A DNA stretch of 34,621 bases, taken from positions 1-34,621 of the IMG/VR virus record IMGVR_UViG_3300020167_000004, one strand, 5' to 3'. Origin of the DNA: a virus. A model generated the notes under the pieces. The model had not been told where the DNA came from and made no database searches. It saw only the letters and a list, made by a program, of their open reading frames with translations. Positions within the stretch are counted from its first letter, which is position 1. Every line of letters starts with the position of its first letter. The position numbers and the translations under genes are program-made. Below, piece after piece: positions 8,940 through 10,202 of this stretch.

Positions 8940-8985
8940 TTTGTTTCCTAAAAGACCCTATGCGATTTGCTGGGGCATGAATGTA

Positions 8986-9005
8986 TTGTTAAGCTAACTA
9001 AACAA
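8986..9005. promoter_or_regulatory. Operator candidate O1
   Basis: TTGTTAAGCTAACTAAACAA is an imperfect dyad in which 16 of 20 positions obey symmetry. It matches O2 (9040-9059) at 16 of 20 positions, with consensus TTGTTAAnCTAnCTnnACAA. It overlaps the -35 element of the proposed rightward promoter. It is the likely site for the Cro-like protein and/or a repressor. Confidence 0.65.
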
Positions 9006-9015
9006 TAATTGTATA
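8986..9015 (+). promoter_or_regulatory. Rightward promoter candidate (toward cro)
   Basis: TTGTTA (8986-8991) and TGTATA (9010-9015) are separated by 18 bp, which would start RNA near 9022, about 44 nt before the Cro-like ATG. The -35 is inside O1. It is a plausible sigma70 promoter with an imperfect -10. Confidence 0.45.
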
Positions 9016-9031
9016 GGTGTTTTCCCTAATC

Positions 9032-9059
9032 TATTTAAATTGTTAATCTAGCTTTACAA
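9032..9059 (-). promoter_or_regulatory. Leftward promoter candidate (toward the recombination operon)
   Basis: Read on the minus strand, TTGTAA (9059-9054) and TAAATA (9037-9032) have 16-bp spacing, with a start near 9025. The -35 is inside O2. The rightward and leftward promoters would face each other, as in P2/186-type switches. Confidence 0.45.
9040..9059. promoter_or_regulatory. Operator candidate O2
   Basis: TTGTTAATCTAGCTTTACAA is a dyad with 16 of 20 symmetric positions and the near twin of O1. The centre-to-centre distance is 54 bp. It covers the -35 of the leftward promoter candidate and ends 6 nt before the cro ATG. Confidence 0.65.
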
Positions 9060-9065
9060 TGCCGC

Positions 9066-9221
9066 ATGACCAAACAGCAATTAACCCAGTTGGCAGGCTC
9101 ACAGAGTGAGCTTGCAAAATTACTTAATGTGAGCCGTTCAGCGGTTTGCCAGTGGAAAGCTGTGCCAGAGCTGCGAATGAGGCAATTAAAAGATTTAAGA
9201 CCCCAGTGGTTTACAACTTAA
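9066..9221 (+). CDS. cro: Cro-like helix-turn-helix regulator (51 aa)
   Basis: The 51-aa product has a compact HTH at about residues 14-33 (SELAKLLNVSRSAVCQW), with the Ala-Leu...Val-Ser...Val-x-Gln-Trp pattern of small Cro/YdaS-type repressors such as P22 Cro. A short C-terminal helix (PELRMRQLKDL) follows. It should bind the dyads directly upstream and decide the balance of the divergent transcripts. It is the first gene of the rightward strand. No CI-size repressor is adjacent, so its opponent is unidentified. No good Shine-Dalgarno is visible before ATG 9066, suggesting weak or leaderless-like translation. Confidence 0.82.
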   Translation: MTKQQLTQLAGSQSELAKLLNVSRSAVCQWKAVPELRMRQLKDLRPQWFTT

Positions 9222-9237
9222 CAGAACCATGTATAAT
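9210..9237 (+). promoter_or_regulatory. Near-consensus sigma70 promoter at the end of cro
   Basis: TTTACA (9210-9215), a 16-bp spacer and a perfect TATAAT (9232-9237). The -35 is in the last cro codons. RNA would start near 9243-9245, at the base of a perfect 8-bp stem. It is the best promoter match I found in the window. Confidence 0.75.
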
Positions 9238-9241
9238 CCAA

Positions 9242-9402
9242 ACCGTCTAGAGTGGCATTTAGACGGTGAATCGACAGAGAACCCCGCAGAGTACTGTGTG
9301 GTCTTGCAAGGTGGCAAGCGTGACTTTTGTCGATTCAATCGTTTAGCTGCTGCTCTCGCCAAGAGCCAAGACCACAGAGCATTTTGCGGGGTTTTTGCTT
9401 TT
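9242..9402 (+). ncRNA. Structured small RNA or attenuated leader
   Basis: Directly after the strong promoter lies a 160-nt segment full of perfect inverted repeats. H1 is ACCGTCTA (9242-9249) with TAGACGGT (9260-9267). Stem A is GAATCGACA (9268-9276) with TGTCGATTC (9328-9336). Stem B has an outer arm AACCCCGCA (9280-9288) with TGCGGGGTT (9385-9393) and an inner arm TGTGGTCTTG (9297-9306) with CAAGACCACA (9367-9376), separated by an 8x8 internal loop. A small hairpin is GCTCT (9352-9356) with AGAGC (9362-9366). Stem B ends in TTTTT, so it is also a terminator. A and B interleave (a-b-a'-b'), so they form either a pseudoknot or alternative folds. No known RNA family was recognised. Confidence 0.7.
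9280..9396 (+). terminator. Long-range intrinsic terminator of the small RNA
   Basis: The outer stem AACCCCGCA/TGCGGGGTT, followed by T at 9392-9396, is the terminator element. The 5' arm is 97 nt upstream of the 3' arm. It would form only if stem A (9268-9276 with 9328-9336) or pairing CTTGC (9303-9307) with GCAAG (9314-9318) does not interfere, which makes it a potential switch. Confidence 0.6.
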
Positions 9403-9655
9403 GGACAATGCAATGCGGTACGTCAGTGGTTGCGTTTGAGATACCCCGATACACGAGCAAACCAGATCGGGGAGCGTGGGCTTAGTTCTAGAGCGCGGTG
9501 GTTGAAACAGTCTGGGACAGTGCGAGGCGATGACATGGCTCCATACAAAAGGAACTAGCATTGAGGCACAGGCGAACTTTGGTTTTGACCACGGTAAGGC
9601 TGTGCTTTGCTCCAACATTCACCACCAAAAGAATTTAATACAAGGAGATATGTAT
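9403..9655 (+). other. Untranslated stretch between the small RNA and the 70-aa gene
   Basis: No convincing gene is seen here. One stem, CCCCGAT (9444-9450) with ATCGGGG (9466-9472), has a 15-nt loop. A frame of 109 codons crosses from 9229 to 9558 but begins inside the -10 box and has a noncoding feel. The segment could hold further leader structure or an origin; no iterons were seen. The next gene has AAGGAG at 9642-9647. Confidence 0.4.
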
Positions 9656-9868
9656 ATGAAGTATCTGATAAACATGGATAAGGAAAGCGGTAAAGCGCAC
9701 CTTTGGGATGACGGTGACTCATATTGCAAGATGTATAGCACCGGCGGTTTGCGAAAGAAAAAATACAAAATTTACGACAATGCCCAAGATCGTGAAATTT
9801 GTTTAATGTGTCAAAACGTGTGGGCTGAAATTCATGAATTTACAGGAAAACAACATGACAAATTTTGA
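9656..9868 (+). CDS. Hypothetical protein with zinc-like cysteines (70 aa)
   Basis: Two ATGs follow AAGGAG; the second (9656) has 8-nt spacing and is preferred over 9650 (2 nt). The 70-aa product (MKYLINMDKESGKAHLWDDG...) has one isolated Cys near residue 24 and a CLMC pair near 50-53, and ends in a helix. It overlaps the next gene by 14 nt. A small beta-alpha domain is likely, perhaps metal-binding, but the function is unknown. Confidence 0.65.
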   Translation: MKYLINMDKESGKAHLWDDGDSYCKMYSTGGLRKKKYKIYDNAQDREICLMCQNVWAEIHEFTGKQHDKF

Positions 9869-10202
9869 ACAATTCTGGGTTGCATGGCCTACCAGTACCC
9901 GCAAAGGCGGCAAGTCTGATTGCTTGAAGCGGTGGGAAAAGTATTATTGTGATAGCTGTTCTGACCAAATAATCAAGCACATTGAATGGATGAAAACAAC
10001 CGACCAATGGCGTAAAGACGGCGGTGCTTACATACCCTCACCCGCTGTTTACCTAAACCAACGGCGCTGGGATGGCGCTGAGATACCCGAGATTAAAAAA
10101 ACCGTCCACATTTTGGATAAGCTGGCAGAAGAAAGCGCAAGGGCAGTGCCTATGCCTGCGGAAATAAAAGCCCGCTTGGATGCATTGCGGGGTCGCAGAT
10201 GA
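9855..10202 (+). CDS. Short replication-type protein (C-terminal module only, 115 aa)
   Basis: ATG 9855 has GGAAA upstream. The sequence MTNFEQFWVAWPTSTRKGGK...AYIPSPAVYLNQRRWDG carries the F-x-FW-x-x-(Y/W)P...KG-K...W and P-x-x-(W/Y)LNQ-x-RW-D pattern. This pattern forms the C-terminal part of many phage replication initiators or primosomal proteins (lambda O / DnaT-like context), where it contacts the host helicase machinery. Those proteins normally carry an N-terminal winged-helix origin-binding domain; here that part is absent, since only the tail module is encoded. It may work with a separate DNA-binding protein. It overlaps the methyltransferase start by 4 nt (ATGA). Confidence 0.7.
   Translation: MTNFEQFWVAWPTSTRKGGKSDCLKRWEKYYCDSCSDQIIKHIEWMKTTDQWRKDGGAYIPSPAVYLNQRRWDGAEIPEIKKTVHILDKLAEESARAVPMPAEIKARLDALRGRR

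Follow-up and report, generated by a model that had tools for sequence, protein, structure and literature searches.

The window analysed here is the whole of a 34,621-nt viral sequence, positions 1–34,621 of IMG/VR record IMGVR_UViG_3300020167_000004. Within it, a divergent intergenic region (8940–9060) separates leftward early genes from a cro-like HTH gene, which is followed by a promoter, a long structured segment, a small ORF and a replication initiation-like gene (Table 1). An earlier note on this DNA had described 9210–9402 as a promoter with a structured RNA behind it. The RNA withstood comparison with homologues, as a structured noncoding element, but the segment proved to be merely the 5′ domain of a longer unit reaching ~9632.

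Table 1 Features of the RNA unit and its neighbours in the window.
Feature	Position	Strand	Evidence or remark
cro-like HTH gene, upstream	9066–9221	+	Pfam P22_Cro, 1.9e-9
Promoter, TTTACA-16-TATAAT	9210–9237	+	overlaps end of cro-like gene; kept in 86/103 homologues
P1 hairpin, CCGTCTAGA/TTTAGACGG, loop GTGGCA	9243–9251/9258–9266	+	predicted RNA 5′ end; 99.6% of cells paired, two pairs changed on both sides
P2 5′ strand, GAATCGACA (pseudoknot)	9268–9276	+	74 distinct strands; 3 columns with 29–37/64 both-side changes
P3 5′ strand, 27-nt arm	9280–9306	+	98.2% paired; 10 pairs changed on both sides
P4 hairpin (9311–9320 with 9340–9350), surrounding P2 3′ strand	9311–9350	+	pair-count helices 4 and 5
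P2 3′ strand, TGTCGATTC, in P4 loop	9328–9336	+	per-sequence pairing score, pair counts
P5 hairpin, GCTC-TCGCCAA-GAGC	9352–9366	+	pair-count helix 6
P3 3′ strand, leading into T-run	9367–9393	+	pair counts, homologue alignment
T-run tail, TTTTTGCTTTTGG; end of 5′ domain and boundary of 3′-module exchange	9392–9404	+	
Module A, 3′ structured part	9405–9632	+	A3 alignment: 91.9% paired versus 33–50% slid
Module A H1 (9408–9413/9430–9435)	9408–9435	+	pair-count helix 1
Module A H2 (9444–9450/9466–9472)	9444–9472	+	pair-count helix 2
Module A H3 (9474–9476/9494–9496) and pseudoknot (9486–9491 with 9512–9517)	9474–9517	+	helices 3 and 4
8-nt repeat, copy a (ACAAAAGG)	9545–9552	+	
Module A terminal hairpin X (9566–9570/9601–9605)	9566–9605	+	helices 5 and 6
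8-nt repeat, copy b (CCAAAAGA), last conserved bases	9625–9632	+	
Small ORF MKYLINM.., directly after RNA	9656–9868	+	found behind module A in six elements
Replication initiation-like gene, downstream	9834–10202	+	phrog_9474, 1.1e-14

Homologues of the 5′ domain were collected from IMG/VR contigs by pattern scans and a first scan (161 copies, 104 distinct). The near-consensus promoter of the earlier note could be read directly (−35 box at 9210–9215, 16-nt spacer, −10 box at 9232–9237) and was conserved, with at least 9 of 12 consensus positions matched in 86/103 homologues compared with 2/103 shuffled upstream sequences. The −10 box lies 5–6 nt upstream of P1 in 102/103 homologues; as the conserved promoter ends so close to P1, the RNA is expected to begin at the base of this hairpin, which had itself been claimed for the RNA start and was retained among the homologues.

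Folding of 9243–9402 gave −72.3 kcal/mol compared with −46.1 ± 3.9 for shuffled sequences (z −6.7), far beyond chance. Across 64 representative homologues, 97.4% of cells in the 5′ domain were paired, compared with 34–44% when the partners were slid, and 22 pairs had changed on both sides, so that an absence of covariation, which the earlier note had named as counting against an RNA, was not seen. Six helices are backed by pair counts, and the most variable of them is P2. Both interleaved pairings proposed earlier are present; the longer of them, described as two blocks, does contain both blocks but is really a single near-continuous 27-bp stem, P3. P2 joins the segment before P3 to the loop of P4, which itself lies within P3, and is thus a genuine pseudoknot. 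Its per-sequence score was 20.8, compared with 11.7 ± 0.3 when 3′ strands were dealt among sequences, and pairing was retained although 74 different P2 5′ strands occur; at the level of sequence, the homologues of the 5′ domain prove this pseudoknot. In addition, the GCCA of P5 is complementary to UGGC in the P1 loop and could pair with it, both being invariant. TTTTT (9392–9396) comes directly after P3.

A 109-codon frame is open through the same DNA in the window, and tblastn with it recovered relatives at 59 IMG/VR loci, so a protein gene whose DNA folds by chance was weighed as an alternative. The translations of the relatives cross all three frames and their ends differ. Length offsets among the homologues (72/21/11 modulo 3) show that indels are not in threes, a stop falls before 55 codons in 26/104 homologues, and substitutions by codon position (15/26/14, from few gapless relatives with 55 changes) lack a third-position excess. 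Searches of Pfam and PHROGs with the frame gave no match. Frame shifts, indels, stops and the missing codon signal contradict a protein gene, which we regard as barely conceivable; the frames differ between relatives as the RNA view predicts, and the conserved coding that the earlier note had named as contrary evidence was not there.

The conserved unit passes 9402 and continues as module A. The helices of this 3′ part and a second pseudoknot within it covary. Its fold energy was no better than that of shuffles (z −0.18), so it is covariation, and not stability, that argues for this structure. An ORF with a Shine–Dalgarno-like stretch begins within 90 nt after module A in 73/97 cases, and the neighbouring genes comprise replication genes (25), zinc-ribbon-like genes (19), HNH endonuclease genes (7), the MKYLINM protein (6) and others. 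The zinc-ribbon-like protein is small (CxCGG...WxCxxCxRYE) and is the next gene in differing contexts (L006, L008, L009, L063, L082, L327 and L354). The HNH genes (Pfam HNH, 3.3e-11) stand directly 3′ of module A in L299, L332, L362, L034, L040, L117 and L135; their occurrence in unrelated contexts is a hint of mobility.

Behind the window-type 5′ domain stands module A (72 distinct), B (26), C (10) or D (2), or else a single form, and scans with the module A 3′ end and the module C core revealed both modules behind other, unrelated 5′ domains as well. Among 255 distinct loci tallied, the 5′ domains could be grouped into eight named classes plus unclassified cases; these counts are approximate because classes were named by our own short sequence signatures, the T-run served to locate domains, and some class III and unclassified cases were misassigned by the helix finder. 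Domains I and III occur with modules A, B and C, domain V with A and B, and domain VII with B and C, so that 5′ domains and 3′ modules combine freely. All eight classes share one topology, with P2 interleaved with a P3 stem of 19–28 bp that ends in a T-run, the presence of the T-run being partly by construction. The perfect P2 helix measured 6.7–10 across classes, compared with 4.6–5.5 for shuffled sequences. The pattern of an intrinsic terminator, a GC-rich stem leading directly into a T-run, was found at 9367–9396 in the window, in all homologues of domain I and in the other classes; a simple terminator scan misses it because the loop is ~60 nt.

The unit usually sits between cro and a replication gene, and a cro-like gene ends right upstream of the promoter in 84/122 loci, as in the window. 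Other sites lie after a terminase gene and between the scaffold and major capsid genes, where a scaffold-gene terminator stands upstream of the unit and in several cases overlaps the RNA promoter. In front of the major capsid gene stands another leader that looks structured and carries a promoter of its own (GGACAACCGCAAGGCC ... GGCCCAGA..TCTGGACAACCG or relatives). In L307, L323, L327, L344 and L354 it lies 3′ of module A and 5′ of the capsid gene, and a related leader is found in the isolate phage MEP301 (L369:3816–4001). MEP301 has the scaffold gene, capsid leader and capsid gene and lacks the RNA, and its leader resembles that downstream of the inserted RNA elsewhere. As its scaffold and capsid genes are separated by the leader alone, the RNA unit is an addition, distinct from the capsid leader. 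At one further locus, two tRNA genes (L391:896–1060) end just upstream of an RNA composed of domain III and module C. Such different sites mean that the unit is no fixed part of a cro/replication switch, and the control of rightward transcription suggested in the earlier note is not supported as a general role.

Module A carries an 8-nt repeat whose two copies stand after GGCTCC plus 1 nt and after TCACC plus 1 nt, flanking hairpin X. In the window the copies share only 6 nt, CAAAAG. Per-position identity between copies was 0.79–0.94 compared with 0.30–0.69 expected, falling to background one base outside, and their longest common run averaged 7.76 compared with 4.04 ± 0.20 for permuted copies. 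Both copies changed jointly in 37/44 close pairs with different repeats. In the pair L096/L326, both are exchanged in RNAs otherwise 99% identical; this may reflect recombination of the whole 3′ end in one step, but matching copies occur as some 30 different words, and recombination leaves that matching unexplained. A target site duplication was rejected as the origin since the two copies continue to change in step in RNAs that are otherwise constant. We detected no coevolving strand complementary to the repeat within ~780 nt around the RNA, no third complementary strand above permutation in the RNA and its 5′ domain or within the 300 nt that follow, no excess of further copies elsewhere in the contigs, and no repeat of this kind in modules B and C. 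As no nearby complementary strand coevolves, the template DNA strand is a candidate partner, being the only one expected to coevolve automatically; the RNA:DNA hybrid of transcription is ~8 nt long.

The statement that no named RNA family is recognisable here was upheld. Rfam 15 at curated thresholds returned no family for the whole window; at E ≤ 5, 9150–9700 gave nothing credible: h2cR scored 22.4 bits against a threshold of 70, and the other two matches were due to chance. Across the carrier loci, Rfam reported only int-alpA RNA and tRNA, outside the element, and a tRNA or tmRNA identity was rejected. Models of the GOLLD and ROOL families matched neither window nor carriers, and int-alpA RNA (RF02996) had no match within the window element. 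This phage-related RNA follows module C directly in some loci (L098:3397–3470, 37.0 bits) and is a separate 3′ unit, standing alone and 4 kb away in L391 (5427–5494). BLAST against INPHARED isolates and PLSDB plasmids gave no intact copy, only a 53-nt module C stretch in one uncultured record. A domain I model run against 399 genomes of one order, chosen around a Burkholderiaceae genome, gave no match, a result that shows little as the run had no positive control; a pattern scan of genome contigs used a pattern too short for specificity, and none of the loci it picked out contained the domain. No paper on this RNA family was found in the open literature searched. Its carriers are metagenomic contigs, with no isolate among them in the collections searched; this may explain how the family went unlisted. 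We take their origin to be freshwater from the company of the contigs (for example, Manatee Spring) and from general knowledge of such samples. By these comparisons, the window would carry one member of a strongly folded noncoding phage RNA family that had not been listed before.

Known systems resemble it in part. The HK022 put RNA and lambda nutR–tR1 place an RNA and a terminator between cro and replication genes; the window position agrees with theirs, but positions at other loci do not, and the element differs in having its own 5′ promoter, a pseudoknot and eight domain classes. Type III toxin–antitoxin RNAs (ToxI) comprise a promoter, a pseudoknotted RNA, a terminator and then a gene, whereas the element lacks tandem RNA repeats and no toxin gene was seen downstream. 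Nearest in kind, if not in sequence, are GOLLD and ROOL, large pseudoknot-rich phage and prophage RNAs whose function is likewise unassigned, and the one copy behind tRNA genes (L391) stands as described for both. In GOLLD, too, one half is conserved and the other variable (PMC12286853). These RNAs measure 600–800 nt, whereas the element is ~390 nt long, has many exchangeable 5′ and 3′ parts and carries a T-run in mid-RNA. We rate the class as new for its combinatorial build, although parts of it may be present in earlier machine surveys.

Taken jointly, these observations are best explained by a self-contained RNA gene that is not a fixed operon switch, a reading that we hold with about even confidence. 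Part of the transcription would halt at the P3 T-run to yield a ~155-nt RNA; the rest would proceed to a ~390-nt RNA that may enter the next small gene. Every class has a T-run after a strong stem, which speaks for intrinsic termination, as a mere scaffold would need no T-run, while a structured module constantly joined behind it, with no promoter in the gap of about 10–25 nt, argues for regular readthrough. We hypothesize that the P3 T-run is a leaky terminator blocked by early formation of P2. Both strands of P2 are transcribed ahead of the P3 3′ strand, and P2 is finished some 57 nt before P3. With P2 closed first, winding of the 27-bp P3 about a strand fixed at its two ends would be very difficult, since a stem of at least two turns would be hindered when the ends of one strand are tied and the polymerase sits on the other, and the polymerase would read through to the 3′ module; with P2 late or melted, P3 would form and transcription would end. 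This kinetic antagonism is suggested by chain topology. The long RNA would most likely act in trans through its 3′ module, a role that its independence of genome position suggests. This model does not account for the 8-nt repeat of module A.

Several other readings compete with that of a self-contained RNA gene. The product could instead be a ~155-nt small RNA ending at the P3 T-run, with module A a separate second RNA or leader behind it. That the stem and T-run are terminator-like in all domain classes fits this, as does the joining of the 5′ domain to unrelated 3′ modules, as if the parts worked apart; yet no promoter separates the two, and their join is retained across ~250 distinct loci. 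Where the unit lies between scaffold and capsid genes, moreover, the upstream terminator insulates it, so that module A could hardly be transcribed by any route bypassing the 5′ domain, and we consider a free-standing small RNA unlikely, if still a serious contender. Comparable doubt attaches to a cis-acting leader, an attenuator or antitermination RNA of the HK022 put kind, that sets expression of the downstream gene. Promoter and terminator-like stem do come first, unit and next gene are co-directional where checked, and an ORF commonly starts close behind module A. The next gene varies, however (replication gene, HNH endonuclease, zinc-ribbon, other small ORFs or none), and the capsid context has a separate promoter and leader after the unit.

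The joint change of the repeat copies, the HNH ORF behind seven copies and the empty site in MEP301 would also suit a mobile RNA element moved by an endonuclease, with the 8-nt repeat as a guide-like tag. This we judge improbable: the repeat is confined to module A, most copies lack a nuclease gene, and insertion ends are undefined. Copy b is, furthermore, often followed by unrelated sequence, and so belongs to the RNA and not to a target. A fuller version of the self-contained RNA gene may be offered tentatively, as possible rather than probable: a combinatorial, autonomous RNA gene moving among freshwater phages, built from at least eight unrelated 5′ pseudoknot–terminator domains with P2-first topology and from several 3′ modules, in which module A bears an 8-nt self-matching tag and copy a may rival copy b for the template.

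Eight unrelated domains with one and the same interleaved arrangement suggest selection on the topology itself. Domain shuffling is familiar in proteins, as in polymorphic toxins and tail fibres, and to our knowledge is hardly known in noncoding RNAs.
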